Shown here piece after piece: positions 769 to 25,953 of a DNA stretch of 27,027 bases; within the stretch, counting starts at the first letter, position 1, and each line of letters opens with the position of its first letter. The DNA is from a virus. Both the position numbers and the translations under genes were made by a program. The notes under the pieces are model-generated. The model searched no databases. It saw nothing but the letters and a program-made list of their open reading frames with translations, and was not told the DNA's origin. The stretch spans positions 829-27,855 of the IMG/VR virus record IMGVR_UViG_3300030085_004712, one strand, 5' to 3'.

Positions 769-983
769 TATTTTTCTGCGAGTTTGAGGAGAAGATCTTT
801 AATAGTTGACATATCTTCCTTTAAAGAATTTATGTCATGTCTCATGTCACGAATCTCTTGATTATCTTTGTCTTGACGATGTTTTTTCAGGAGATAATGT
901 TGATAGGCGTTGTGGTTTGTGTTTACCACAGCGCCTGTTGTCATATCCCTTTCAAGATTGGGATGCCCTTCAACTTTCATCAT
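768..983 (-). CDS. Small coiled-coil protein, 71 aa
   Basis: A 71-residue charged protein. Residues 44-68 form a clean heptad series with I44, M47, I51, L54, M58, I61, L65 and L68 in a/d positions, so the C-terminal half should be a parallel coiled coil. The N-terminal part (HPNLERDMTTGAVVNTN) resembles a short motif I recall from small marine-phage proteins next to structural genes. The chosen start is the first of two adjacent ATGs; it forms an ATGA overlap with the stop of the 2,708-aa gene, typical of coupled translation. Starting at the second ATG would remove one residue. In T4 the fibritin gene wac, also a coiled-coil protein, lies just before gene 13. That positional similarity is suggestive, but there is no sequence evidence of homology. 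Confidence 0.78.
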   Translation of the reverse strand: MMKVEGHPNLERDMTTGAVVNTNHNAYQHYLLKKHRQDKDNQEIRDMRHDINSLKEDMSTIKDLLLKLAEK

Positions 984-3900
984 CTTACAGCGATAGAGCG
1001 GAGATTCTTAATGCGAGGTGGTCTTGATTGATCCACACCAGTCATAACGATCTTCAATTGGAATCCAGTAAATTCTGGAAGATCATCAACGAAGAATTCA
1101 TATTCTTTGAATTGTCCTGGGTCACTAGGTGTGACCAGTACATTTGATCTACCATCATTGTTCGCAACATCAATGACATTACCAAGATCATCAAGGTTAT
1201 TGTAACCTGGGAACAAGTTATATGGCACAGAATCGATGCTACTATCATCAGTAAAGATCTTGTAAAGAACTCTGATGTCAGCAGTTCGATCTCTATATGC
1301 ATCCAGAAGAACTTTGATGGAATTTGCTGGATTTGCAAGATCAACTCTCTTAGTGATGTAGATAGCACCGTTAGGATCTTCGCCAGTAACAGTGACTCTT
1401 CTGTCTTGTGAGAAGTCAGATACTGGTGAATTCAGTCTATTTGAAGTGAGAATAGCTTGAACTCTATCAAGGTCAACCACAGGAGAAACAAAGGAATTAT
1501 TAGAGAAGAATTCAAGATCAAGAGTAAATGATTTGTTTCCAGGGAGATCACGTAGAAGAGTAGTTTCATTATTCTTAGATGCGATCATCCTTGGAGAATC
1601 GAGTTCATTTGGTTCATTAAGAGTCACGGACTCGTAACCTTGATCCGTGAATGATTCTTCACCACCATCAACACTCGTTGCACCCAGTGTCCTGATGCTC
1701 GCATTTAATGAAGTGCCATTAAGAATAAGAGTCTGAACATTTGGTGTAATGGTTTCAAATTGAATGTTGTTACCACCAGTTACCTTGTCACCACCAACTT
1801 TCTTAGGTGAATTGAATCCAAGTTTGGGGAATGAAGTATTGACTGATCTGTCAATACCACTGGTAGACATATCAATCTTGATTGCATAAGAGTCAAGTTT
1901 CCTCGCGTTCCCAATAGTTGCATCACTAAGAGTATGATCCTTGTTAATTCTTCTGAGAGAAACTCCATTCAATTCATACTTAGAAATCAAATCACCTGCA
2001 CTGTGTGCAAAGGATCCTTTGTTATCAATATTTCTGGTAATTCCAGAGAGAGCATTACCAGTAATGCCAGTATAAGAGATGATCTCATTACCAATGACAG
2101 CATATCCTGGGTTTGTAGTTCCAACACCCACATTTTCAAAGGTTTCAAACTTGGATGTATTTGCAAGTCCGATGTTACCAGTTGCAGTTGATTCAATATC
2201 AGCACTGAGAGTTGTAGGTCTCATGTCTGGTTTGATGTTGCTAATAGAAACACCATTAGTACCAGAATACATAGCATGATTTCTATGTCTAATGTCTAAA
2301 TGCAAACCATCAGAGTTTGTATTGACAGATACACTGTTAGCAGAGACTCCTGTTAGGATTCCAACAGCGCCAGTTTCCTGAACGACATAAGTCATTGTTC
2401 CAGCAGTTCCAGTAACAAATTCACCTTGAACTCCATCAAGAACGAGAGCATTAATTGCGGAAATAATGCCAACACTGAATCTTGCATTTCTGCCAAGAGT
2501 AGTGCTACCTAATGTGCCAATACCAAGTTCATCACCAACCGCATATCCTGTGCCACCGTTAGTGATGAAACAAGATGTAATTCCACCAGAACTGACAGTT
2601 ACAGAAGCAACAGCACCAGATCCAGAACCAGAAAGGGTTTCTAAGTTAGCAGAGTATGTTCCAAAACCACTGGATGGAGTATATCCAATACCAGCGTTGA
2701 TAATGTCAACGGAAGCACCAATGCCGATAGAACCGAGAGTGTCAATAATAACACCAGTCGCGGTTGTGTTGTTGACCTGAGAAACGTTAACTCCATCGAT
2801 GACAACTGCTTCCATTGCAGAACTTAGAGTAGAACCAAGTCCAACAGTTGCTTTTCTACTGATGGTTTGAACTGGATTTGGACCAAGTTTCGTAACACCA
2901 CCATTTGTGAGACCCATATCTGGGTTGTAGAATGATGCATTAGCAGATGTCCCAGTTGTAAACTGAGCTCTGTACATGCTAAATTTAAGATCCTCAAATT
3001 GACTTGCATCCCAGGTAGAACCATTTTGAGATTTAAATAAAGATCCCAAAAGTGGTTGTTGAGAAATTACTTGTCTAGCAGCATTTTCATCAGTCGAAGT
3101 TCCAGTAACATCCTCTTCACCCATTCTAGAAATCCAAGCACCATATTCAGTGGTGTCTGCAAGAAGAACAAATGCATATTCAGTATTACCTTTAAGGTAT
3201 ACGGGAGATGGGAAAGTAAATTTGGTTGGAACTGACGCATCATCAGAGACATTGACCTCAGATGGCATCAAATCAACTTCACCAAATGGAACGATTGTGG
3301 TAGTTGGAGTTCCATCTCGCATTGTTCTAATCTGCATGGTCACTGGCAGATTAGCGTCCTTTGCTTGGAAATATGCTTCAATGGCAGTAATAAATACGCC
3401 ATCAGCAGAATTGATATAGAAGGACTGTGCCAAAGGATCTCTCCGACATCTGCTCGATCTTCCACCACGACCGCCGCCGCCACGACCGCCGCCGCGACCT
3501 CCACGACCTCCTCCACCTCTTGCAATAGGAGCACGATTAAAGCTATTATTACGACCGCCTCCACGGCTTCTTCCGCCGCCTCCGCCGCCACGTCTTCCGC
3601 CGCCGCCGCGACTTCTTCCGCCACCACGTCCAGTAGATCCGTGTCTGGTTACACCTTTTCTGGCATAAGATCTTCCACTCCTACCACTGTTTCTTCTAGA
3701 AGTATAGAGAGTTCTGGTTCTGGAAAGATTTCTGGTAGCAATCAATCTACCCGAACTATCGAAGTTCCAGATTCTTCCACCTCTTCTAGCGATCGGTGCT
3801 CTGTTGAAAGGTCTTCTGCGTCCTTGACGACGGAACCTTCTGGGTCCTCCTCTTCTTCTTTGTCTTCCTCTGGAAGATCTGCCACCTCCACCGGATCCAC

Positions 3901-6900
3901 CACACTCAACAGGAGCACCTGGTTGAGTTAACAACCAAGCAGTATCATAAAGGCGAGCATTTCTTTCGGAGTTGGAATTATGATATGCTGTATAAGAACC
4001 AAAACCATTGTTAACAGCAACAGTAAATGCAACATAACGTGCATCACAGTTTGCACTAGGTCTCTGTCTTACGTTTCTAAGGATCGTATCTTCACTTACT
4101 TCACTGACAACAGAATCAGTAGATCCAAGAATAGTTTCGCTGGTTGTTGTTTCTTGGAAGATAGATTGATGAATGGCATTTGATCTTGTGGAGAGAATAT
4201 TCTCTTCTGTAAATTCAAGTAAACCACTTGCTTGGAACGTAGTTTCTGCTGACGTTTGATTCAGAGAAGAAACAAATCTCGTATTTGGAAGTGAAGAAAG
4301 TTTAACAACTTTACTGCCAGTTAAAAATCTTGGGTTGGTTTCCTTAGATGGATCAGGAATAAAAATAGAACCAACAACAAATCCAACCTCATCAGTTACT
4401 AATCTAATATCATCGACACTAGCTTGTGCTCCACTGGTAAGACCTTTAAGAATCATTCCTCTGCGAGGATACCCGAAGAAGTCTCCATTGACTTTGGATG
4501 CAAGTGATGTAGTATCAACATTCAATATAGTTGAGACAGATGAGTAATCATCTGGAAGTGTTTCATCATTATTGTATGGATTTAATGTAAAAGTTGTTGT
4601 TGGATCATCAAAAGGTCCCGTTCTATGATTTGGTTCTGCTAGTCTAAACTTAAATGTTGCAGTTGCTTCATCAGGAGTTGGATTAATTCCAGATTCTGCT
4701 CTGGACATTGTGCCAACAACGGTTTCCCCAACTGCAAAAGTTCCAGATGTCATGACAACTTCAAGCAGTTTTGGTGCTGAGAAGTCAATCATGTTGACAT
4801 TATCCAAGATTGGATATATCTGAGTTCTTGGTCTAAGTCTACTTCCTTTAAATTCAATATTACGCGATCTCATGTGCGTAATAGTAGATCTGTTCAGAAC
4901 TCTATTACCAATAGTCGCCTTCTCAATATGAGGGGTGGTTCTAATGGCAACACCGTCTCTTACTTGCTTATGAAGCTGTACATCAGAAGTTGTTCTTACA
5001 ACCTTCGTGGTGGTTGTCTTAACGTCATCAGTTGCATTAAGTTGCTTGGTTGTGCTACTAACAACAGTGTTATCAGCAGTTCTAGTATCTCTACCAATAA
5101 CGCTATCTACCCAAGAACCCCATTCAATTTCTGCAAAACCCTTTGCTTCTTCGATACCAAGTTTTTGAGTTGAAGCAACAAAATCAGGACCATTTACATC
5201 AAATTCCTGAGTTTTAATAACCTTTTGATCGACCCAGAGATCAGACGATGGATAAAGATGAAGTCTACCAGTCCAATTAGTTACGAGGAATGGGTTAACA
5301 GATTCAACACGAGATGCAAATAAGTTTTGCATGAAAACCAAATCTGCATAGTTGAGGGTGATGAGATCACCAGTCTTTCTAAGATTTGGATCTGTTAATT
5401 GTGAGTTGAAACGATTGTCTGCCGTGTCAGGAATAGAATTTCCAATTCCAGTTATTGCTGCTGTTGCAAGAACAAGATCAATAGCAGTGGTATAGTGAGG
5501 TGGTCTCAGTTCTCCATTGTAAGTATCAATTGAACAATCAAAGTCTTCATTTGATTGATCTTGAATCTGGTGAGTTTTGAAATTATCAACAAAGAAACCA
5601 CTCTTAAATCTATCAAGACCTTTTGCATCTTGAATCGTAAGTGCCTCCGTCTCCTTTTCTAATAGAGAAAGTGCTGTATAATATTCAAGACTGGTAATCC
5701 TATTATCCAAATCACCAATGTCTTTCATGGTATATCTCTTATGCTCTACTCTCTTGATAGATGCACTATCAATGGAGAACATATAAGGAGGAAGTTTGAT
5801 TGTGGCAATCTCTAAATTATCATCCAATGCAGGAGGTAATTGAGGATTGACTGATGGTACGCCATTTACAACGTTGAACTTGCCAAATGCATCTAAGAAT
5901 ACTCTGTCAATACGACCAAGATAGTATTCATAATTAATAACAATATTCTCGTCAGAAACTAAGATATTTGGAACCGATTGTCCACTACCGGTAAAGTCCC
6001 TGGAAGCAAAATCGAATGGAGATGTAGTGGTCGTTGTATCATAATCACTAACCCTTGGTCTAATGTCAAGAATGTCTGTGTTTCTTACACCTTCAAAGGA
6101 TGGGATATCATTGCTATACAGTTCATTATCATAACTTTCGGAAGTGAAAATGTCACCAGTATCAGAAGCAGCAACCGTGTAATTTTGGAAAATTACTCTA
6201 AGTTTTCTGTGGGCACTTTCTCTCCCTTTCTTTCTTACAATTCTTCCATAATCATAGAAGGAATTTCTTTGTCCATTATCAAGAAGATAATCTCCGGTGA
6301 CATTTTTATCTGCCTGACCAATATCTGCAACTGTTGCTCCGATAGATGAAACATCACTAGTCAGACCCTCTTCCAGTGAGAAGACTTTATTATTAAGGTA
6401 AACTACTTCTAAGACAGTTCCAGAAACTACTGAAACAACTCTTGCAACTGCTTTGCTGTCTCCACCAACTAGTTTTTCGCCAATAATAAAATCAGCAGTT
6501 GTTTGACTTGGACCACTCATGGTCGAAAGAGTCACTGTTGGTAAATTTGGAGCATTCTGATCATCTGATTCAAAAACACCAAGAACTCTTAAAACATCTG
6601 GTTTGTTCAGAGAAATTTCTTTATCCTGAACTCTGGTTCCATATACATTACTGTAAGTAAGACCATCATTCAAAGTAGTGGTTCCGATTCCAGATGAAGC
6701 ATCACTGGATCTGGTAATAAGAACAGAGGAGACATTATTAAGTCTCTTTAATTTTTCACGGACTCTATTTTTGTTGAGAGTAGCGAACACTCTAATATTT
6801 GTTTCTTCTTCTCGATCGAGACCGGCAATAGTTACTGTTTTTGCATTACTTGCAACTGTAACCATGTCCTCAGTGAGAGGTTGAATGGTGCCATCAGAAT

Positions 6901-9106
6901 ATGCAACGTGATATCTCTCTTCATCAAATGGTAGATAAGCTTCATTAGAAGGAGCAGTCTCTAACGTAAGAGTGCTAGAAGCGGAGGAGACATTAGTAAA
7001 TACCCTCTTGATTACGATATTTGCAGTGCCAAGATCTACACTATCAACATTTTCAACACCAAGGGTAGTGAAGAAAGTGTTATCTTCTACATTAATTAAA
7101 TCACCAGATACAACTTCAAGGTCAGTGATTTGTTGTACGTTCTGAGGAGGAGCACCCTCAAAGACATTTGATACCGTCTGAATGCCTGCCAGAGTCATCT
7201 CAGATGCAGTGTTATTGATGCTGTGTACTCTCAGTACAACAGGATCAGAAATAGCACTATCAGTGGAGATAAATCTAACAAGATCGTTCGTGGTAACAAT
7301 ACCAACAAAAGTTCCTTGCTCGGCAGTAATCGTGCTGAAACCTGCTGGGAATACATCAGCACCACTACCACTTCTGCCACTAATAGTAAATGGCGTTCCA
7401 AACTTTCTCTTAGTCGTTAATTTTAGATCAGCATTGAAGGTTTGAATGCCAACCGTGGTGCCTTGATAAATGGACTTGGTTTTTGAAATATCGTAATTGG
7501 TCGTAATCGCAACCGTGGTGTTATAATTTACGCCATCAACTGCAATCTTTTCTCCTTTGTGGAAAGATCCTTTAACCTGCCTTAGACTAAATGCGGAAGA
7601 TCCAGATGCATCATCAACAACAAATCCAGAGGCACCACTATACTGCCCAGAGAGGAAAGCTCCTGCTCTTAGAGACGTAAATGGTTGAGTAATTTCTAAC
7701 TTAGTGTATGGGGAAATATCAAAAAGTCTAAGGGTATACTCAGATTCTGGACCTTTGAAGACCTGAGATTCTAAGTTATAGTCATAGATTCTACATTCAC
7801 CAATGGCACTACCAGCAGCAACAGTTGATCCAACACCAACTCTTTCGTCTCTCAGAATAGCAGCAATGGTTGTACCAAATCCTACAACAGGTGAACCATG
7901 AAGATTATTAATCGTTAACTTTGGACCAACAGAAAGTGGAACTGCTCTTTGAAATACTTCTCTGGTGGTTCTTGGTTTATCAATATCAATTACAGTATCT
8001 GTCTGCTTTTCTACCTCAAATCCTCTAACATATGCCTTACCAGAAGAGATGACATACTCCATCAAATTATCGGATGGAGTATTCGCTTGATATGTCAGTT
8101 CATCTTCATTGTACAGACCATCATTACCCAGATAGTTATTGAGGGTATTTTTAATAGAAAGTCCAAAGGGTTGAATATAATAGTCACCAGACTCATCATG
8201 AGTTCTTCTTGCAAATTCTGCTTTAATGAAGTTATAATCAGTATTCTTTACAAAGGTTTCAAGTTCACCATTTTGAATCCTCATCAATTCAACAAAATCT
8301 GGATCATCATTATCGCTGATCAGTTTTGCTGTTAGAAAAGCACTGATTTTTAATCTGTCAGCACCTGGTGCAGAATAGTTACTAAAACCCTGAGCATTAT
8401 CATTTAAAGATGAATCTTCATCTGCATTGATAATTTCTTCAATTACAGACAAACCAACTTTAACAGTTGGCATTGACTCATATTGCTGTAACAGAATAGT
8501 CTGAGCACCAACAGTTACAAAGTTACCTCTTAAAAAATATACACCCTCTTGAATATTAGCAGCGGAACCGGTAATATTGCAATTTGAAGGAAGAGTTCGT
8601 GCAAATCCTTGATTTGCAGAAATTGAAGTATTCCCATATGACAAAGAGTCTAATAGGATTAGGTTTTCTCCCTCAATGAAATCACCAGTGGTAAGATCAG
8701 ACCCAGACTTTGTAATTGTAAAATATAAGGTATCAAAATTTAAAGCAGAATCATTAGCAGTTAAGACGAACTCAACTTTTGCTTCAATTCCAGAATTTTC
8801 ACCTCTAAATCTTTTGCCTACTAATTCTTCGATGTACAAACTGATGGGAATACCAGCAAAATCTGGATCAATACAAACACCAGTAAAAACATCTTGGTAT
8901 GAAAGTTGCCCAGGAATTACTTTCGCACCTTCTTTAAAAAAGTGTGTGCCAAATTTTTCAATTTGATCTTGAAGAATTGACTGTAATCCAGTTAATTCTC
9001 TTGCTTGAACAGGAGTCCCTGGTTTAAAAAGAACTCTGTGAAAATTACTGGCTGCATCAAAGTCATCATAATATGGAGTGACATTGAGATTAGTTTCCTG
9101 GGGCAT
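980..9106 (-). CDS. Giant DUF4815-type baseplate/tail structural protein, 2,708 aa
   Basis: The N-terminus (PYYDDFDAASNFHRVLFKPG, then PVQARELTGLQSILQDQIEK and FGTHFFKEGAKVIPG) is the signature I associate with DUF4815 virion proteins of large myophages. The second DUF4815 hallmark is at residues 1124-1174: a short coiled coil (DLDNRITSLEYYTALSLLEK) followed by LDRFKSGFFVDNF. Residues 1736-1886 are an Arg/Gly-rich tract between Cys1735 and Cys1887. After it comes DPLAQSFYINSADGVFIT and a beta domain with FTFPSPVYLKGNTEYAFVLL, a block commonly found in such proteins. Residues about 2130-2196 hold a GGTGY repeat module and residues about 2333-2360 a NEIISYTG module, both also present in the gp7-like protein. 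It starts 4 nt after the gp8 stop with no strong ribosome binding site. It occupies the place of T4 genes 9-12, so it is probably a peripheral baseplate or fibre-attachment protein; that role is inferred. Confidence 0.8.
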   Translation of the reverse strand: MPQETNLNVTPYYDDFDAASNFHRVLFKPGTPVQARELTGLQSILQDQIEKFGTHFFKEGAKVIPGQLSYQDVFTGVCIDPDFAGIPISLYIEELVGKRFRGENSGIEAKVEFVLTANDSALNFDTLYFTITKSGSDLTTGDFIEGENLILLDSLSYGNTSISANQGFARTLPSNCNITGSAANIQEGVYFLRGNFVTVGAQTILLQQYESMPTVKVGLSVIEEIINADEDSSLNDNAQGFSNYSAPGADRLKISAFLTAKLISDNDDPDFVELMRIQNGELETFVKNTDYNFIKAEFARRTHDESGDYYIQPFGLSIKNTLNNYLGNDGLYNEDELTYQANTPSDNLMEYVISSGKAYVRGFEVEKQTDTVIDIDKPRTTREVFQRAVPLSVGPKLTINNLHGSPVVGFGTTIAAILRDERVGVGSTVAAGSAIGECRIYDYNLESQVFKGPESEYTLRLFDISPYTKLEITQPFTSLRAGAFLSGQYSGASGFVVDDASGSSAFSLRQVKGSFHKGEKIAVDGVNYNTTVAITTNYDISKTKSIYQGTTVGIQTFNADLKLTTKRKFGTPFTISGRSGSGADVFPAGFSTITAEQGTFVGIVTTNDLVRFISTDSAISDPVVLRVHSINNTASEMTLAGIQTVSNVFEGAPPQNVQQITDLEVVSGDLINVEDNTFFTTLGVENVDSVDLGTANIVIKRVFTNVSSASSTLTLETAPSNEAYLPFDEERYHVAYSDGTIQPLTEDMVTVASNAKTVTIAGLDREEETNIRVFATLNKNRVREKLKRLNNVSSVLITRSSDASSGIGTTTLNDGLTYSNVYGTRVQDKEISLNKPDVLRVLGVFESDDQNAPNLPTVTLSTMSGPSQTTADFIIGEKLVGGDSKAVARVVSVVSGTVLEVVYLNNKVFSLEEGLTSDVSSIGATVADIGQADKNVTGDYLLDNGQRNSFYDYGRIVRKKGRESAHRKLRVIFQNYTVAASDTGDIFTSESYDNELYSNDIPSFEGVRNTDILDIRPRVSDYDTTTTTSPFDFASRDFTGSGQSVPNILVSDENIVINYEYYLGRIDRVFLDAFGKFNVVNGVPSVNPQLPPALDDNLEIATIKLPPYMFSIDSASIKRVEHKRYTMKDIGDLDNRITSLEYYTALSLLEKETEALTIQDAKGLDRFKSGFFVDNFKTHQIQDQSNEDFDCSIDTYNGELRPPHYTTAIDLVLATAAITGIGNSIPDTADNRFNSQLTDPNLRKTGDLITLNYADLVFMQNLFASRVESVNPFLVTNWTGRLHLYPSSDLWVDQKVIKTQEFDVNGPDFVASTQKLGIEEAKGFAEIEWGSWVDSVIGRDTRTADNTVVSSTTKQLNATDDVKTTTTKVVRTTSDVQLHKQVRDGVAIRTTPHIEKATIGNRVLNRSTITHMRSRNIEFKGSRLRPRTQIYPILDNVNMIDFSAPKLLEVVMTSGTFAVGETVVGTMSRAESGINPTPDEATATFKFRLAEPNHRTGPFDDPTTTFTLNPYNNDETLPDDYSSVSTILNVDTTSLASKVNGDFFGYPRRGMILKGLTSGAQASVDDIRLVTDEVGFVVGSIFIPDPSKETNPRFLTGSKVVKLSSLPNTRFVSSLNQTSAETTFQASGLLEFTEENILSTRSNAIHQSIFQETTTSETILGSTDSVVSEVSEDTILRNVRQRPSANCDARYVAFTVAVNNGFGSYTAYHNSNSERNARLYDTAWLLTQPGAPVECGGSGGGGRSSRGRQRRRGGPRRFRRQGRRRPFNRAPIARRGGRIWNFDSSGRLIATRNLSRTRTLYTSRRNSGRSGRSYARKGVTRHGSTGRGGGRSRGGGGRRGGGGGGRSRGGGRNNSFNRAPIARGGGGRGGRGGGRGGGGRGGRSSRCRRDPLAQSFYINSADGVFITAIEAYFQAKDANLPVTMQIRTMRDGTPTTTIVPFGEVDLMPSEVNVSDDASVPTKFTFPSPVYLKGNTEYAFVLLADTTEYGAWISRMGEEDVTGTSTDENAARQVISQQPLLGSLFKSQNGSTWDASQFEDLKFSMYRAQFTTGTSANASFYNPDMGLTNGGVTKLGPNPVQTISRKATVGLGSTLSSAMEAVVIDGVNVSQVNNTTATGVIIDTLGSIGIGASVDIINAGIGYTPSSGFGTYSANLETLSGSGSGAVASVTVSSGGITSCFITNGGTGYAVGDELGIGTLGSTTLGRNARFSVGIISAINALVLDGVQGEFVTGTAGTMTYVVQETGAVGILTGVSANSVSVNTNSDGLHLDIRHRNHAMYSGTNGVSISNIKPDMRPTTLSADIESTATGNIGLANTSKFETFENVGVGTTNPGYAVIGNEIISYTGITGNALSGITRNIDNKGSFAHSAGDLISKYELNGVSLRRINKDHTLSDATIGNARKLDSYAIKIDMSTSGIDRSVNTSFPKLGFNSPKKVGGDKVTGGNNIQFETITPNVQTLILNGTSLNASIRTLGATSVDGGEESFTDQGYESVTLNEPNELDSPRMIASKNNETTLLRDLPGNKSFTLDLEFFSNNSFVSPVVDLDRVQAILTSNRLNSPVSDFSQDRRVTVTGEDPNGAIYITKRVDLANPANSIKVLLDAYRDRTADIRVLYKIFTDDSSIDSVPYNLFPGYNNLDDLGNVIDVANNDGRSNVLVTPSDPGQFKEYEFFVDDLPEFTGFQLKIVMTGVDQSRPPRIKNLRSIAVR
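2066..2086 (-). repeat. EIISYTG module in the 2,708-aa protein
   Basis: Residues 2341-2347 of the 2,708-aa protein. This is the partner of the module in the gp7-like N-terminus, with matching flanks (a G/L-rich strand before it, an F/L-x-G-x-x-R element after it). Confidence 0.75.
3518..3541 (-). repeat. FNRAPIAR octapeptide, copy 2
   Basis: Residues 1856-1863 of the 2,708-aa protein, encoded TTT AAT CGT GCT CCT ATT GCA AGA. Only the last codon matches copy 1. Both copies are followed by an Arg/Gly run (RRGGR or RGGGG). Confidence 0.9.
3785..3808 (-). repeat. FNRAPIAR octapeptide, copy 1
   Basis: Residues 1767-1774 of the 2,708-aa protein, encoded TTC AAC AGA GCA CCG ATC GCT AGA. The identical peptide returns 89 residues later with different codons at seven of the eight positions. 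Confidence 0.9.
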
Positions 9107-10674: not shown

Positions 10675-10682
10675 TATTTATG
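10675..10682 (-). promoter_or_regulatory. Late-promoter-like CATAAATA before gp8
   Basis: Coding-strand CATAAATA matches the T4 late consensus TATAAATA at 7 of 8 positions and overlaps the TAA stop of the gp7-like gene. It lies 16 nt upstream of the gp8 ATG, close for a promoter but similar to the spacing at gp13. It could give gp8 and the downstream genes a separate late transcript, so that expression does not depend on reading through 12 kb. Confidence 0.45.
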
Positions 10683-13600
10683 TTAAATATCCAACTGATT
10701 TCAATGGTGTTTTTCTAATGATAACAGGACCAGTTGTAATCCCTGTAACACCACCATCGAGAATTGGGGTGAATGTCTTAGCAATGCCAGATCTAGTAAA
10801 GGTTTGAAGTTTACCCCAACTAAACTTACCAAAGATTTCACTATGACCGTAACCAGTTATTCCCTCAGTGCTTGCAACACTTACGACAACTCTTGCAACG
10901 TATGTGGTTCCAAATCCAACCGCCTCCGTTGTTGCAACAGAAACAGAAACTGCTTCATATACATTATCTAAGCATGTAGAACCAATTCCAAGTGTAGCAC
11001 CACCAAGATCAAGAGAAGTGACCCCCTGACCAATATTTGAATCAAATACCACAAATGGATATCCAGCTGCGATATTGGAAATTGTTCTTGCTGCACCAGG
11101 TCCCATTACAGAGGTGCTCCTCAGAGGAGACCCATCAGGAATCAACAGATCAAAGATTAAACCTGTTGTTGCAACTCCAATAGATGTGGTTCCAATACCA
11201 GAGATAATACCAAAGTCGCCAGAGTAATCAACATTTTTGATTTCCTCTCTATCAAAATTAGGTGGTGTGAGAAGAACAACTGGTGGATTGGTAAACGTAT
11301 ATCCAGCACCAGCACCACTCATAGTGATTGAAGTGACTGCCGTTCCGGTTATGGATGCAGTTGCGGTCGCCCTGGTAGCAGAACCAAAACCAACGCTATT
11401 TGCAATGGAAACCAGAGGTGCTACTGTATATCCAAGACCAGAGTTTGTGATACTAATCGAAGAAACAGTACCAAATCCAGAAACAACTGCTGTTGCAGCA
11501 GCAGAAATTTTAGTATCCTGGTTAATGATTTCAATTGTTTGTTTGACTTCGGGAAGAGATTCTGCGTAAGAATCAAACAGGGGGAAGACACCTGTTGTCC
11601 AGATTTCAGTAGAACCAAGTCCAACTGCCTTAATAATATTTGTTTTTGGTAAGATGTTTGCCCCATATAAGATTCTATCTTTGGTAACAGCTTTGTTATC
11701 GATGAATAAATCATCTTGCTGTTTACACCAAACCATAGGTCTCTTAATTGTCCTATCTGTGGTCAAACCTGCTCCATTGTATGGAGTGGTGAGGAAAGTA
11801 TCAGCAGTTGTAATTCCAGAAACAATCCTGACATTTTGATCAAATTTCAATCTGTTTTGATCATCATCTGCTTTAATTCTTACACTATCACCAGGTTTAA
11901 TTGATTCAATAATGTCTCTACTGATAACATCAACTCCACCCGTACCACGATAGAATAGAATAGAGCAAGTATCACCAACCTTTGGTGCCTCAATAAATGT
12001 AATATTTGAACCACCATCAAATTCATATGCGATACCTGGTTCTTGTAAAACGTCATTTAAGAAGACTAGAATAGTTTGTTTAACATCAATCAACGATCCT
12101 TTTGCAGATCTAATCGATGCGGGAGTTCCATTCTTCTTCATACCAAATACTTTTGTCTCACCATCAAAGGATTCATCCAGTTTGTCAAATACATCAAGAT
12201 CACCAAATCTCCAACCAGTCATCTTATCAGAGTCTACTCTGTTGACATTAATTCTAAACTCACTAAATCCAGCACCAACCGTAGAGTTGGTTGGGATTCC
12301 TGTAATACCACCCTCTGGAATGGTCAGAATTTCTCCAACTTTATATCCATAACCACTGTTGATGATATCAAAATTTAGAACACTAGATCCAAGAGAAACT
12401 TGAACATCAACAAACGCATTTGTGCCAATTTGAGAACCAGGGGAATCTGGATGATAAATCAGCGGAATGCGAGTATATGGGATTGGTTGATCAAAGACAA
12501 CGATTGGTGGATTGCTAAATGTATAACCAGCGCCAGGATTAGTGATTGAAACGCCAGTGACGTTACCATTAACAACCGTTGCCGTACCAATAGCAGTTAC
12601 CTCAACTGTATCGATATCAGCAGTTCTGATTCCGACGTTATAAGTCAGTTCTTGAACGACACCATTGTAAGTTGCAATTCCAGTTCTATAACCAGATCCA
12701 CTATTACCAATGCTAATAGAAGAGATAGTACCAAATCCAGAGACATTAGCAGTACCACCAGCAGCAACCAAAGGTTGATAACCGAATCCTTGCGTCGATC
12801 CGACCGAGACAATAACACCACCAACAGGAATAGAACCAGTGTTTACATCATTGGTTACGGAAGCAGCAAAACCACTGAACACAATGGATGTGATGCCAGC
12901 ATTCTCCGTAAGTGAGAAATCATTAATTCGTGCATCCTGTGATGGGATTTGAGCAATATCATTAATTAAAACCAAAGCATGGTTTGTGCTGAAACCGCTG
13001 ACGTTTACACCATCACTTTGTATGGTAAATGTTTTGCCAACACCAGTTAACTCCTGAGAAACGGAATCCATCAGGAAGTTTGTTGCATAAGTGTGAGTCG
13101 AAGTTCCGACCACACCACTTCTCATAAAGGATCTACCTTGGAAAGTAGATGTTGTTTGAATTCCAGTGTAATCTACGTCATCAGGATCGGTGCCCTCGAT
13201 GGGTTTCAATCCATTTGGAGCAGTATAGAAATTAATAGTATTATCAACGATGTTGTAAGAACCTTCATATTTTTCAATTGCGGAACCATTCGCGTGAGTT
13301 GAAAGACCTGTGCCCATCCATGCTCTCTGAACCACAAGAAGATTTGTACTACCAAATCCAACTTGCTTGACTTTTACAAACTCATCATCAACTTTGAGAA
13401 GATCTCCTCCAAAAATAGATGTAATGCCAGAGATTCTCATCAATTCTCCGCCGAATGACATTTGCTCAACGAGAGTATTTTCAACGTTAGCTGGAATCAC
13501 TGGATCTTGAATATTATTATCCAGAGTAATGATACATTTTGTGTTTTGATCTTGGGCAGTAAATGTATGAGAGGTTCCAATACCAACAGTTGTCAAATCT

Positions 13601-16600
13601 AAGTAGTTTCCTACATTAGAAGCGAGAGCATCCTCAGGGGATCCAGCAAGACGAATTGATTTGTCATCAACCTTAATTGCATAAACATATTCTGGAAGTT
13701 TATCGGTGGATCCATATCCAGTGATGGTTGTAGTAGCAATACCAACTGAGGAAGTTGTTCCAGAACCAGTTGGATTATATTTTAATCTTTCACCAGATGC
13801 GAAGAAATGATTTGGGAGTGTGATGATATCATTATCAACGTCAACAACTAATGGGTTCGTAGAATCAAAGTCCTTGAAGAAAATTGGGTCACCACCATGG
13901 AAAAGACCAAATGCTCTTCTAACGTCAGCATCAGTATTAGTATAAGTTCCTTCAAAACTGCTAACCTTAGTGTCAACAAGATCTAATTCAAATAGACCTT
14001 CAACACCACCTTTGGTTTGAGATGCAGATGTTACTAGGGTTTTTACTCTGACCTCAGTCGATACAGGAGGCACATATACAACGTTATAATTATCCCCATC
14101 TTTGATTGCAGTTATGGTTCCAATTCCTTGCTGAATACTGTCAGAATCGGTCTCAACATTAGCAAAGAGTGTTTGATAAATCTCACCATCACTATCATGC
14201 ATGAAGATACCTTCAAGAAGTTCAAACTTGTCGTTTGTAACATCATTAATGTGGAAGAGAACATGTGCCCCTTCTTCACTAACAGTTTCATTTCCGAAAG
14301 TTGCAATAGTTGTAATTCCTGGGGATCCTGACGCAGAAATACCTTCGTATTGAGCTTTTATGTTACCAGTGATTAATTCAGATGTGGCAATTCCAACAGT
14401 TGACACGCCGCTGAGGAAATTTTGCCCAAAGATGTTGAAAGTAATACCAGTTCCAGTAACACCTGCTTGTGGTGTGGCGTTAATATAGAATATATTATTT
14501 TCAACAGATGCTCCAAACGTTGCAATTGCTCCAACCGTTGCTTCCGTAGATGATGGATTAATGTTGGACATGTTTCCATATTCAACTCCGTAAGAGAATC
14601 CATCATCATTAAGTGCATTAATATTCACAATTTCATGCTGTTCCCCAGCACTCATTTGAATCATAAATTTATGACCAGCATCAAAACTTGCAAGTGGGAG
14701 TGAGTAAATGTTTACCGTCGTGGTAACACCTGCATTAATTTTGCCTCCCTTTGTTGTGAGTTCGACAATATCACCGATAGTTGTAACACCAACGACTGTT
14801 GAAATACCAACCGCATCATGAATGTCTCTATCTACATTGTAAACAAGACCATGGACATCAAAATTATTGGTGTCAAAATCATCTGGATAGAAGAGTAATT
14901 GACCTTCGGTGCCATTAACTTGGAAATCAAAGTATCCATTGAGATCAGTATTTCCATCAACAGATGCAAATTCTTGAATGTATCCATTTGAATTATTATC
15001 AATCAGGAGTTCAATGATCTCCATTCTTCTAGTTCCAATGAACTGAGTATCAAATGTTAAAGCAAAATATTTTCTATATCGGGTTCCTGCAAGTGGGAAT
15101 GTATCGATAACGGCAAATCTAGTTGCTCTTGGAACGTTATTAAACTCACCGGAAACATTGTCAATAGAGAGAACTCTATTTCCAATCGATTCTTCATAGT
15201 CGGCAATAGCACGATTACGCATTAATATTTCGTCAGAGATAAATTCTCCCGAAATTGACTTAGAAGTTTCAGAAACAAAATCAAAATCATACTGACAGTA
15301 TGTTTCAACTTCACTGATCAGATCAACAAACAATTCAATTGTGTTTGAAGAAATGCCAACTTGTTTAATGCCATCTTCTTTTGACTCGATTTGTAGATCA
15401 GAGAATTTTTTAAATCCACCAGGGTGTGCCATGGATGACACAATTTCATTCCAGGTATCAAAAGCAATTTTTGATTTTAGTGAGTATGAGAAGTATTGAT
15501 AATAATCACTATCAATTAGTCTTTGCTCATTGGTATTGAGTTTACCGGTGTCTTTGTTCCAACCTCTTACAACATCTTCAACTGCAACAATATCATATAA
15601 GGAATCAACATTAATTTTTTCAGATACTGTTCCAAAAGTTCCAGAACCAGTTCCTCTAACAAGATCGCCAACAAAAATCTCTTTTGCTGAATTAATTTTT
15701 AAAATTTTATTTTTAGTGTCCCAACTAGAAACATTTCCATATTTGGTTTCATCTAAATTGGTAACTTCAACTTGCTCGTCAATTGAAAACTCATTCTTTT
15801 TAAGAATTGGATCGAATACAGGAAACTCTTCAAAAGGAATAACTCTTCCCGCAGATTTCGTAGTAACATATGTTCCTGGATTTGAAATGTCAGAATCTAA
15901 CTTATAAGTAATAGATCCAATTCCACCAATGTTTTCGTCTATGGCAGTTACTTCAAAGAACTTGAAGTTATAATCTGTTGAGTTGTATCCAGATCCAGTA
16001 GATGCAATACCAACACCTTCAACAAAAATCTTTCCACCTACTGAGAATGGGAAAGATCCCGTAGTTGAAAATCCAGTATTCAGATCAAGTGAAACTTCGT
16101 TTGTGATGGTGTTAAATCCAACGGTCGTAATTCCGACTCCATTTGGATTGTTTATGGTAAGGAGTGTGGGTTTGGCATCAGAAAGATTCTTAGCGTTCTC
16201 TCTGATGATAATTTCAGAGATTCCACCATTTCTTACTTTGGGTTCAAGAATAACGTTATCAATTTTTTTATTAGTGATTGCATCAATAACAACAATTGTT
16301 GGTACAGAATTATACCCCCTTCCTGCCGAAGTAATACCTACACTATCAAAAGAATTGAGACCTTCAATTCTTAAAATTTCAGGAGTGTTTGCAATTACTT
16401 TAAAAGTTGGGTCAAATGGATAATTGTAACCAGTGCTTTGTTTACGAGTTCTGACGATTGTACCCATATCACCAGTCAGTCTTACAAGACCACCAGATCC
16501 CGTTGTAGATCCAATTGATGTAATGCCGGGTAAATCTAAGTAATTTCTACTGGTCTTCTTAATGTTAATACTATCAATTGGTCCAGTAGCATTGGAGGAT

Positions 16601-19600
16601 TTGTGGGTGTAATAGAATGTTCCCTCAGAAGATCCATAACTGGTTCTTTCTGGTTCTTCAACCAAATTAAATTTGAACGTTGTTGTTCCTATGCCAGTTG
16701 GATACTCAAATACCTGATATACACTATTGACCAAAGAAATAGTGTTTGAAGAATCTTGCTCTTTGTCGATGAATATTTCAGTTTTTGCCGTTGGTGCAAT
16801 GTCAACATTAATTGGGACAAACTTATAGAAGAGATTGTTTGGAATCTCACTATTGGTTTTAATATTAACAGCAGACGGTTCTGTTACACCAATAGTTCCT
16901 ATTCCAGTAATTTCAAAAGTCTTAGATGATCTTGTTGATTTAAATTCATTATTAAACTCGGCATCTGTATAGAATTTCAAGTCAAACGCTGAGAAGGTAG
17001 ATCCAGATGCAACAATTGCCAGCGAAGAGTCAGTGGTTGCAAAAGAAACAGTATTACCCCTTCTGACATCAACTCTTGGGTTGATCTTAGACAAGAAGTG
17101 CTCACCACTTCCAGTTCCACCGATAGAAATAGGTGTGGGATTAGAACTAGTAGCGTCTACTTTGTTCGCTGCAAGTTTTACATTGTTTGAATCAATTCTA
17201 ATTGCATAATACATTTGTTGGTCTACCATTCCAGATGGTGCAGTTCCACCAGTGCTGTAAATGACCTTATCACCACTCACTAAATCGTGATCTTGGATAT
17301 TAATATTATTAGTTGTGGATGTGATTCCACTAGGTTCAAACTTTTTCCTATCAAATACAATTCTTCTGTTATAATCATTATATTGAACAAATACTATTTG
17401 TTCCTTATTCGGAGATGCAAATAATCTAATTTGATCGTCGAATTTTAATCCGTGTGCCTCCTCAGTTGTTAAAGTGGCTTCATGAACATTTGCATCAGCA
17501 GTAATAGGAGAAGTTTCTCTCTTGAAACTGTGAGTAACACCTAATCCAGCGACAGTAAATGCTAACTGAACAGCAGTAGATCCTAACCCAACGAAAGAGC
17601 CGGTGGATCCTAAACCAACCTTGGTCGTAGAGATACCGAGAAGATTCGCAGACTCTTTGATAGCATATACCGTCGATTGATCTGAAAGAACAAAAGTACC
17701 AATTCCATCAGACACTTCAATAGAAGTTCCGCCACCATTTGAATAAGTCAGTTTATCACCAGTCTCAAATGAGTGGTTAGGAATCAAGATTGTTTTAATA
17801 GGAATAATTCTGCTAGTATAAGCAGTTCCTGGTTGATAATCCGTATTCTCTTGTAAATGAGGAGGTGCAATGTTGTTGAGAGCGTGATATGCAATAGTAG
17901 TTCCAACACCAACAACTGCTGTGGTTCCAAGTCCAACCACTTCGGATGGATCAAAATATCTCTGGAATGTTGGTGGATTGCTGATGAAGGTATCAATGCC
18001 AACGTTAAAAGTGAAGGAACTACGAATGTCAAGAGCGAGAGTGCCAGTGGAATATGAGGTTCCCACAGTTCCATTTTGATTTCTTTGAACTCTCATTACA
18101 GAATTCAAAGGATCCACGTTAAGAACTTTCATCTGCTCTAAATTAGCAGCACTGCTTCCAATACCAATAATGGTATTTTCTCTCACATAGAGAGGATCGT
18201 AAGGACCATTGAGTGAGATGGTGGTTGTTAGACCAGTATTAGCTGGTGTATCAATAAACTTATCAGTTCTCCAAATTCTTTGCGGATTAGAGATGGTTTG
18301 AGTGCCATTTAAACTTGCAAAGGATTCTGTTGACAATCCAGAGATTACAACTATATTTTTGTTTTCAAAGTTATGAGGGGAAGTGCAATAACCGATAGCA
18401 AGACCACCACCAACAAAGAGTTCAAGGTTTTCTGCACTAATTGTTGAGGACGCAAGAGATACGACCTTTTTACCAACAACTCTTCCAACAGTTAATCTAG
18501 ATTGTCTGCCATATTGTGGGTCTCCATCTAAATGGAGTACATCTCCACTCTTATAACTGGTTCCAGCAGAAACAATTTCATATCCTGTAATTCCACCCTT
18601 AGAAGTAGACTCAATTACACTAATTTGTTTCTTATCTGATGTAGTATCATTAATATATTCATTGAATCCGTAAAGATTGCTAGTTTTTGATGGTTTTGTA
18701 TTTCTAATTAAGAAATCAAAATTAAAGTCAATTTGATTATTCAATCTAGTGACGTTAAAATCACTAGGAATTGAATTATAAGTATCACCAATTAAATATG
18801 GGAACTGCGGTTGCTTGTAATTTTTAAAAGGTCCATCACTATCTGATTTTCCTGTATTAATCGTTGCAAAATATGCATATGTCCCATTTGGGAAGTCGGG
18901 AGTTACACAAAATCTGCCATTGTGCTCATCTAAGTCCCCATTGCTACCAAACTTATAATCTTCAACAAAGAATCCATTTGGGAATCCGGGGGGTCTTTCT
19001 AAACTTGGATCTAAGATATATCCAGACTCTAAGGCTCTAACTGGACCACCGCTGTCTTTACCATATCCATAAGGACCATAAATTGGATGACCATCATTTG
19101 CCCAACCAATGATTGGAGAGTGATTTTTGGAAACGACTTCAATATCGTTTTGTTTAATTAAATCAAAAGTATCTGCACCATAGTTTAAAGATCCATCTTC
19201 ATTCTTAGAGTAGATGGACTCTCTCAATGCCCTTGGAGCAGAAAGACACGCTACACTTCCTTGTGAGTGTTCATTAGTTTTTTTGACAAGAATTCCATCA
19301 TCTGCATCTAATAATTCTTTCTTTCTTTCAAATAGATTAACATTCCATGTTTTAATGGATACTTTTGCCTTTGCCTCAGATCCATTTGGAATTACATCAA
19401 CAAATGTTGTGTCACTTCTAAAACCAACACCGGAATCATTGACTTTGATCGAAGTAATAACTCCATTTGTAATTATTGGAGTAAGATGTGCATTAATTCC
19501 TGCACCAGTAATTTTTAAATCAGGAACAGAATTGTAATTTTTTCCACCATTCAAAACAAAGACTTCTTTAATACTTGTGCCTTCAATGATTGGTTTAAGT

Positions 19601-22600
19601 TGAGCACCAGAACCATTCTCAAAAGTTACCAAAGATTGGCGTTCAAAATTAAGGATGTCTGAGCAACCATATCCAGTACCACCTTTTTCAAGATTGATTT
19701 TAGAAATAGATCCTCTAAACTTAGGAGAAAGTTTAGATGCAAAAGTCAAATTGTTAGTTGTTGCAATTCCAACGTTACCAACAATAGACACATTGATGTC
19801 TGGATAATTAAAAATATGAGTTCCACCAACACCAGTGGTATTAAATTTTGCAAAAATATTATTATTAAAATTGTAGAGGGATTCCGTCGTGCCAATTCCA
19901 GCAGAAGATAATTTAAATGAATCGGAGTCAACACTCGTTACCACATAATTTTGATCTGTGGTTAATCCACTAATGGATGTCCCCTCATGACGATATTGAA
20001 TTTTTTCTCCGGTTTTAAAACCATGATTTGTAAAATTAATTTGATTCTTACTGGTGCTAATACCAGAAGAAGATACTTTAATCAAATTATTTGAATATCC
20101 ACTTCCACCAGATTCGACAGATATTGAGGAGAGAATATTTTTCTTATTAACTGTGGTAAAATACTGATTACCCTCACCAAAAGTGGTTATATTAATTGTG
20201 CTTACCCCTGCAAGGGCATCTGTTCGTTTGTTATGTAAAGTGATTTCACTAAGAGACTTTACGTGAACATGGTAAATTGAATTATTGTTAAGGTAAGCAT
20301 CTCTTACTTGCGACTCACTGGTAGTTCCAATTCCAATTGCAGTTTGGGAGTTGGAGCTATAAACAACACCGTCACCATTTCTAAAACGGTGGTAAGTTGT
20401 AAATCCAATGACATTAGTTGACGTAGAAATATTTCCAGCACCAGAACTTACATCAACAAATGCTACGGTTTTTTCAGATCTAAGATTTGCTCTTGCTTTT
20501 GCTCCCGTTCCATTACCACCAGAGATGTTAATGATTGGTTCACCTACAAAATCATATCCACTATCATCTATTTCAATTGCTTCAAGGGATCCAATAACAG
20601 TAGCAGTAGCAGTCGCTCCTGTGCCTACACTATCTTCGATAATAATATTTGGTGGATTAATTACATCATAATCAGATCCACCGGACAAAACATCAACAGA
20701 GGTTAATTTTCCATAGTAACAAAAATCTTCCGATTTGTACGAATTGATATCAACACCATTAATTAAAAATCCAATATTTCCTGGTTTTGTTTTTTCTTTT
20801 TGAAAAGGAGTTTCGATAAAACGAGAAACTTTTCTAACACCATATGAACTATCTAATTGATTTTCATATGAAGAAATTGGATATATGACTTGACTACTCG
20901 CAATACCACTAACATCAACAAATTTAGACTGAAAAATATTTGATCTGGATTCTGATAGTTTAAATCTATCATTGTCTAATTTTTTTACAAAGTATTTCCC
21001 CTCTTGCAAATCTCCAAGGTTTCTGACCGTTGAGATAGAGACAGGTTCCCCATAATCGGTTATCAATTCTACGAATTTATCTGGTTGATAATAAACTTCA
21101 TCACCTGTGAAGAATCCATGCCCAACATAATCAATGGTGTCACCAGAAACAATTAAAGGTGCGGTAGAACTCTTACCATTGTCCGTTAAAAGAACATTTC
21201 CAGTTTTAACATTGATTGGATTTGAATATTTTGGTAACGAGTGAGAAGCAACGTAAACGTTATCATTATCATCATAAAAAGATTTTAAAATGTTCGCTGG
21301 TAGCGTATTAACAACTGAATTTTGGGAATCAACCTTAGTAATCAGTCTTCTTACTTCACCGCCCTTGGCTGGATCAAATCCAGAGAGACCTGATACGGCA
21401 AAAATTTTATCTGCAATAATTTTAGTTACTACACCACTAGTTTCAAGTTTAGTTGGTGTAATAACTTGAATAGAATCACCAACAGACAATCCATGTGGTT
21501 CAGTTGATTCAATTTGATACAATGAAATAATATTTGGATTTTGTCCAAGTTGATTTTGATTTAAGATACTTGCTGTCTCAATATCAAATCTAGAAGTTTC
21601 ATTTGTAATAAAAGAGTCAGATACTACATTGTTTTTTGAATATCCAAGTGACTGATTTTTGATAATATCACCTTTTTTAAAGTATGGTGTATCAACATCA
21701 GTTGCTTTTATCTTAAAGTCTCCAAGTGAACCTTTTAATCTGAATTCAAATTCAGTTCCATCGTCAAGGACACCATAAGTCTTTGAAGTATCAAAAATTT
21801 CTTCCTTATCTAAAACACCCTCATTTAGACCAACTAAGTCTAAAAATTGTGTTACATTCTTAGATTTATATGTTACAACCCCAACATCATTGTTTGAAAA
21901 CTTGATTGAAAGTTCCCCAGACTCTGGAAAACCAATAGTGGATTCAACATCAACGAATGTAGCCGCAGTTGCTACATTACCAATTACTTTTGTTTGAGGT
22001 GTAATTTTAAAGTCACCAAAGATAGATCCAACAACTGAGCTGTCTTTTCTTTCAACGTAATCAAGATCGATCTGAAAATATGCACCGTCATCAGTAATAA
22101 TTCTCTCAGAAGCAACTACTGAACCAGAACCTGTAATATTTCCGTCTTTGTCCTCTTGAAAAACATTTTTTGTGATGAGTCCACTTAAATATTTTTCTGT
22201 AACATCTTGTTGACCGGGAACAGGAAATGCATTGAGTCTAAGAACTCTTCTGTATTCAGCAGCGGAAGGTGCGAAAAGATTATCTTGTGGTTTTAAAACT
22301 TCAACCTCATCATTATAAAGTGCCCTGAAAAGAATTTCAAATCCATCAGCGGTTCCTTTGGATCTGTAAAAATCTGTGGCTTGTTTAATGAAGTTTGCGC
22401 TGTTTAATCCAGGATATAAATTTGCGTTTTCAAGACCAGGAAGATATTCCGATTTTAACTTTCTAAAAAATTCTTTTAGGAAAAGAGATGATAAGTTCTC
22501 TACCGCAGCATCTGCAACGTGCTCATCTGCCGAAGATGAATCAAAAATTAACTCATCTGGTCCAGTATTGGAACGATAACTGGTAATACCACTAAAACCC

Positions 22601-25284: not shown

Positions 25285-25953
25285 TTAGGAAGAAATTCCA
25301 GAATTTACTCTTTCTTCTCCGGTTTCCCAGAAATATTCGTCGGTATCACCGAGTCTTCCCCATCGAACTCCATTCTCAACTTGATAATATTCCGTAGAGA
25401 CCTTGAAATCGGGCGTAAGTGGCGTTTCAGGGGTGATTGAGAGGTCATAAATTCGTGTTCTATTGTTGGGATACAGTGCGTACTGCCCATTTTCTAGTTC
25501 AATGCAGTTATGTGACTTATGTTCTTGCGGCACTTCACTTACATTTGTGTCAATAATATCGTGATCGGGGTGGTAGTTGTCCAGAGTGAAGAGATATTCC
25601 CCTTTCAGATTACCATAGTTACGTGTTCGGACCTCAAAATCCATAGATCCGATGAATTGTTTCTCGATACAGCGGACTCCATAGTCCATACAGTTCCAAA
25701 ATTGAAGGTTTGGAAGGTCTAGATCGGGGTCAGGTGTGACTGGTTCCGAGACAAAAGCACTGATGGGCAGCTTATCGAACATTGCACCATACTCAGGCAG
25801 GTAAGTTTCAAAATAAAAAGCGCGTCCAGGAATCGACTTTGCCGATACCCAAACGCCTTCTACAAACTCACCATGCCCGTCCTTCAAGTCTCTTAGATAT
25901 TCCTTACGAACCCACACCTTATGTGCAGGGAGATTGATGACGAGTTGACTCAT
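25285..25953 (-). CDS. Conserved-looking protein of unknown function, 222 aa
   Basis: Soluble, acidic-looking protein with many aromatic residues and no membrane segment or signal peptide. Recognisable elements: LPAHKVWVRKEYLRDLKDGH near the start, IPGRAFYFETYLPEYGAMFD and LPISAFVS (about residues 40-70), LQFWNCMDYGV (about 84-94), and a second half with KGEYLFTLDNYHPDHD, QEHKSHNCIELENGQYALYP and NNRTRIYD. I recall similar proteins (AHRVWV, IPGRAxYF, WNC, HKxxH, YPNNR) in many myophages, always unannotated. The His/Cys residues in HPDHD, HKSHNC and WNC could be metal ligands, which is inference only. AAGGAAGG (25960-25967) lies 6 nt before the ATG, a good ribosome binding site. It lies between a glycosyltransferase operon and gp25; its function cannot be assigned. 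Confidence 0.82.
   Translation of the reverse strand: MSQLVINLPAHKVWVRKEYLRDLKDGHGEFVEGVWVSAKSIPGRAFYFETYLPEYGAMFDKLPISAFVSEPVTPDPDLDLPNLQFWNCMDYGVRCIEKQFIGSMDFEVRTRNYGNLKGEYLFTLDNYHPDHDIIDTNVSEVPQEHKSHNCIELENGQYALYPNNRTRIYDLSITPETPLTPDFKVSTEYYQVENGVRWGRLGDTDEYFWETGEERVNSGISS

Follow-up and report, generated by a model that had tools for sequence, protein, structure and literature searches.

Closest described systems

VrlC is an integral part of two-layered phage baseplates (PMC7029224). VrlC-like proteins with the DUF4815 domain (PF16075) are encoded by cyanophages and pelagimyophages in a gene that follows gp8, and they contain a conserved domain that we refer to here by its DPLAQSF motif. 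A shorter DUF4815 protein of 1152 aa is found in the baseplate of Staphylococcus phage phi812 (PDB 9euf, 9eui, and 9euj). We analyzed a 27,027-nucleotide stretch of viral DNA (the window; IMG/VR record IMGVR_UViG_3300030085_004712, positions 829 to 27,855), which encodes a related protein of 2708 aa (positions 980 to 9106, minus strand). Matches to Pfam DUF4815 (E = 4.9e-63; 213.8 bits, above the gathering cut-off of 30), to phrog_358, and to PDB sequences and folds identify it as a DUF4815/VrlC-like baseplate structural protein. The gene order is that of a T4-like baseplate operon, with gp25, gp6, a 4090-aa protein, and gp8, and the DUF4815 gene lies downstream, which fits the VrlC-like placement. 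The 4090-aa protein (positions 10678 to 22950, minus strand) lies between gp6 and gp8, the place of gp7 in T4, and is without an Arg/Gly-rich tract.

The annotated proteins nearest to the 2708-aa protein come from Synechococcus and Prochlorococcus myophages (approximately 37 to 43% identity), with whole-protein homology of approximately 41 to 43% to those of S-CAM9, S-SM2, and others; the S-SM2 version bears the name VrlC. The gp6 protein of the window is 53 to 56% identical to that of the same annotated myophages. We infer that the host is likely a cyanobacterium. A 222-aa protein of the window (positions 25285 to 25953, minus strand) is labeled ferredoxin (auxiliary metabolic) by PHROG, versus transcriptional regulator in some Synechococcus phages.

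The phi812 baseplate protein was matched at the sequence level with an E value of 4e-40, and its chains (9euf/9eui) were also the best Foldseek match (E of approximately 1e-7), with TM-scores that were low (0.12 to 0.27) over the multidomain model. The two proteins have N-terminal stretches and the DPLAQSF domain (residues 1890 to 2051; positions 2954 to 3439, minus strand) in common. However, the match picks up again only at this domain, so that the Arg/Gly-rich tract directly before it in the window protein is without a visible counterpart in phi812.

An Arg/Gly-rich tract between invariant cysteines

The tract extends from C1735 to C1887 (positions 3446 to 3904, minus strand) and was delimited by composition, clade alignment, and AlphaFold prediction. 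Its 153 residues are 28% Arg and 32% Gly (60% together), with frequent RGG triplets and a single acidic residue. The two cysteines at its ends are invariant in the clade alignment. Directly before the tract is a short Cys-containing helical segment (NCDARYVAFTVAVNNG...PGAPV, residues 1686 to 1733; positions 3908 to 4051, minus strand), which is kept across the clade and is the best-predicted part of the model of this region in a close relative, L009 (pLDDT of approximately 75 to 83). The pLDDT of the tract was approximately 23 to 41, compared to approximately 85 to 91 in the domains directly downstream, including the DPLAQSF domain. The tract is therefore predicted to be a disordered linker. 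At the DNA level it is tandem-repetitive, and the GC content over positions 3400 to 3624 (approximately 0.55 to 0.67) is above that of the surroundings.

Low-complexity regions of clustered RGG/RG triplets (RGG/RG boxes, or GAR regions) are known from cellular RNA-binding proteins. The tract resembles them in its clustered triplets, its composition, and its predicted disorder, whereas it belongs to a virion baseplate protein and has the WNFD repeats described below in between. A search of the other baseplate proteins in the window for an Arg/Gly-rich tract found none, and a literature search for RGG or Arg-Gly tracts in phage baseplates returned no papers.

The GGR-WNFD repeat

The recurring element of the clade, which was missed in the preliminary description, is a 28-residue repeat of the form GGR-x-(W/Y)-(N/H)-F-D-x-x-G-x-L-I-x-T. 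Two copies are present in each of the 13 relatives whose sequence spans the tract (L002, L003, L004, L005, L007, L008, L009, L011, L012, L014, L017, L018, and L087, several of them near-identical), compared to one in the window protein, the first (GGRIWNFDSSGRLIATRNLSRTRTLYTS, residues 1776 to 1803; positions 3698 to 3781, minus strand). Residues 1775 to 1819 are identical to those of L009 at 43 of 45 positions. The second repeat of L009 aligns with NNSFNRAPIAR and an Arg/Gly run of the window protein; clade alignment, GC content, and tandem repetition mark the R/G/S stretch GGGGRGGRGGGRGGGGRGGRSSRC (residues 1864 to 1887; positions 3446 to 3517, minus strand) as replacing the second repeat.

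In the AlphaFold model of the L009 region, both repeats are drawn as short hairpins at low confidence, too low to be read for the tract. The repeat does not appear to be a known domain, as Pfam gave no significant match and NCBIfam, searched with the whole protein, gave none. When viral and bacterial genomes were scanned for the pattern, the only matches outside the clade were unrelated; the six bacterial ones, judged by number only, were near a rough chance estimate. No WNFD or linker segment in common with cultured VrlC-bearing phages was detectable with the low-complexity filter on.

A repeated octapeptide with different codons

The peptide FNRAPIAR occurs twice in the tract, as previously described and as read directly in the open reading frame at positions 980 to 9106. 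Copy 1 (residues 1767 to 1774; positions 3785 to 3808, minus strand; TTC AAC AGA GCA CCG ATC GCT AGA) is part of linker 1 and closely precedes the first GGR-WNFD repeat. Copy 2 (residues 1856 to 1863; positions 3518 to 3541, minus strand; TTT AAT CGT GCT CCT ATT GCA AGA) lies where the relatives have the second repeat. Seven of the eight codons and 8 of the 24 nucleotides differ.

The repeat is not due to chance or to composition alone. A search with the back-translated pattern hit exactly these two sites of the window, with no match in 100 shuffled windows, and when the tract was shuffled, a repeated 8-mer with at least five distinct residues arose in 2 of 20,000 shuffles. FNRAPIAR is also the sole repeated 8-mer of the protein other than plain R/G/S sequence. 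The codon difference is only moderately striking: the codon usage of the phage itself gives an expectation of approximately four of eight, and the probability of seven or more is 0.03 to 0.05. The identity of the two peptides cannot itself count for selection, because the pair was noticed through being identical.

Conservation among relatives

The preliminary description proposed that the octapeptide was kept by selection, and the alignment of homologues does not bear this out. L009 is 90.6% identical to the window protein over its whole length, and in L009, L011, and L087, the closest tract-bearing relatives, both octapeptide slots are either missing or occupied by different sequence. The peptide is likewise absent from L002, L003, L007, and L008, with both slots differing or deleted. 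In comparisons with L009, L011, and L087, dN is 0.05 to 0.11 and dS 0.6 to 1.0 in the core that follows the tract, and dN is 0.02 to 0.13 in the segment with the first GGR-WNFD repeat, whereas the Arg/Gly stretch has a dN of 0.3 to 0.6. Overall among the relatives, dN ranges from 0.33 to 0.89 in the Arg/Gly stretch versus 0.05 to 0.19 in the following core. These substitution rates point to purifying selection on the first GGR-WNFD repeat and on the core close to the tract. Since the octapeptide slots are deleted or unlike while these flanks are conserved, the variation of the peptide is no less free than that of the sequence around it, the outcome that the preliminary description had named as refuting its proposal.

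Nor was the octapeptide encoded in a plausible protein by any IMG/VR contig beyond the window; the four matches elsewhere were all in short frames (20 to 48 aa) of unrelated context. A family-wide motif is ruled out by the slots of the relatives together with this viral scan. When FNRAP was sought across the contigs of the relatives, L014 alone had it. L011 and L015 share a contig (IMGVR_UViG_3300030103_005292) on which the gene is split near residue 1290, possibly by a contig frameshift.

History of the two copies

L014 and L012 form a branch separate from that of the window. L014 carries FNRAPSSR in the stretch that leads up to its second WNFD repeat, and this site matches copy 2 and the preceding Ser codon at 22 of 27 nucleotides, a level reached by none of 5,000 codon shuffles of the L014 tract. 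Copy 1 matches the same site at only 13 of 24 nucleotides. A weaker match is the PIAR of L012, which occupies the copy 1 slot immediately ahead of the first WNFD repeat in that relative. It follows that copy 2, at least, either predates this phage or has passed between branches, and the pair does not resemble the product of a recent duplication. We considered whether copy 2 could be a decayed second WNFD repeat. The alignment for this is only loose (RNNSFNR with RTWNFDR), the DNA match to L014 is better, and the WNFD repeat of L014 lies separately downstream of its FNRAP site, which speaks against such an origin.

The earlier proposal of an old duplication kept by selection thus stands in part: the repeat is beyond chance and copy 2 appears to be old or exchanged, but selective conservation does not hold. 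Because the homologous DNA of L014 corresponds to copy 2 and is not matched by copy 1, the copies have separate and older histories, and their codon difference needs no anti-recombination explanation. The suggestion that synonymous differences limit recombination between the copies found no support elsewhere in the tract either. The two WNFD repeats of L009, L087, and L007 agree in codon wherever their residues are identical (9, 9, and 7 residues compared, respectively), indicating that divergence at the DNA level is not a general feature of repeats in the tract. The codon sharing in these three is as if the repeats had been homogenized or recently duplicated.

Interpretation of the octapeptide pair

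We consider it likely that the FNRAPIAR pair represents fragments specific to this lineage, in a rapidly evolving and probably disordered Arg/Gly linker of a T4-like, cyanophage-related baseplate protein, and not a conserved functional motif. The tract evolves through short pieces gained, lost, and exchanged between the two clade-invariant cysteines; this phage has kept one GGR-WNFD repeat, with the second FNRAPIAR standing in the place of the missing one, and the synonymous differences between the copies are at the level given by saturation. The tract may form an exposed, strongly positive, flexible baseplate loop that loosely contacts an anionic host surface, a role suggested by where it lies, by its charge, and by how variable the site is. 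The WNFD repeats would be small hairpins, and the exact linker peptides would matter little. However, with dN so high across the tract, eight identical residues between synonymously saturated copies are somewhat unlikely without constraint, and the FNRAP of L014 and the PIAR in the linker 1 slot of L012 hint that the peptide or its parts recur in the family.

These same observations could be explained by a short linear binding motif selected twice in this lineage, perhaps for bivalent contact with a baseplate protein or the host surface. A repeat exceeding that of the shuffles, a protein sequence identical despite the changed codons, and the partial matches in the corresponding linkers of L014 and L012 would agree with such a motif. 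It nevertheless appears unlikely, as the closest tract-bearing relatives are without the peptide (L009 being nearly a refuting case of free variation), no further viral contig offers a plausible context for it, L014 differs in two of the last three residues (SSR for IAR), and the identity of the pair is an ascertained property. A more specific form, in which a lineage-specific bivalent motif, partial in L014 and L012, was selected twice here and took over the contact role of the second GGR-WNFD hairpin in an exchangeable, basic host-contact loop, is given a low probability. Ancestry offers a different account, in which a FNRAPIAR-like peptide once preceded both GGR-WNFD repeats, was mostly lost or changed, and was retained at both places here. 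The positions of the L014 homologue before the second repeat and of the L012 PIAR before the first are as this predicts, and the codon difference fits an age of dS of approximately 1; but the PIAR match is weak, with a 4-mer of the peptide found in 0.9% of L012 shuffles, and several independent losses would be required, including those in L009, L011, and L087. We regard this history as improbable.

An assembly error or chimera in the low-complexity, GC-rich tract might also account for copy 2 and for the missing second WNFD repeat, given that the record is a virus fragment of 28 kb from a metagenome, that the tract is GC-rich and tandem-repetitive, and that the L001 sequence stops just before the tract and L006 within it. 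This is very improbable. The reading frame is open throughout the tract, the homologue of copy 2 in L014 lies in a complete reading frame from a different sample, and the 8 differences in 24 nucleotides mean that neither copy arose as a misassembled repeat of the other. Under the preferred reading, that of lineage-specific linker pieces, an identical peptide with changed codons in low-complexity sequence is insufficient to infer selection.

An insert site before the DPLAQSF domain

The octapeptide itself is minor compared with the site in which it lies, where modules of differing kinds are found: DUF4214 domains, Arg-rich or short inserts, and the Arg/Gly-rich tract with WNFD repeats. In contrast to the window protein, other VrlC-like relatives have short inserts, Arg-rich or coiled stretches, DUF4214 domains (L027, L037, L054, and L058), or long Cys-containing inserts at the site of the tract. 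Such insert sites are candidates for tuning the baseplate to the host surface. The window (positions 3446 to 4051) and L027, L037, L054, L058, L020, L028, and L076 all have the insert site directly before the DPLAQSF domain in cyanophage VrlC-like proteins. L063, L069, and L079 have long inserts of other types with a Cys near the end, shortly before the DPLAQSF domain (e.g., KKNCGHGIQDPLAQSF), resembling the clade-invariant C1887.
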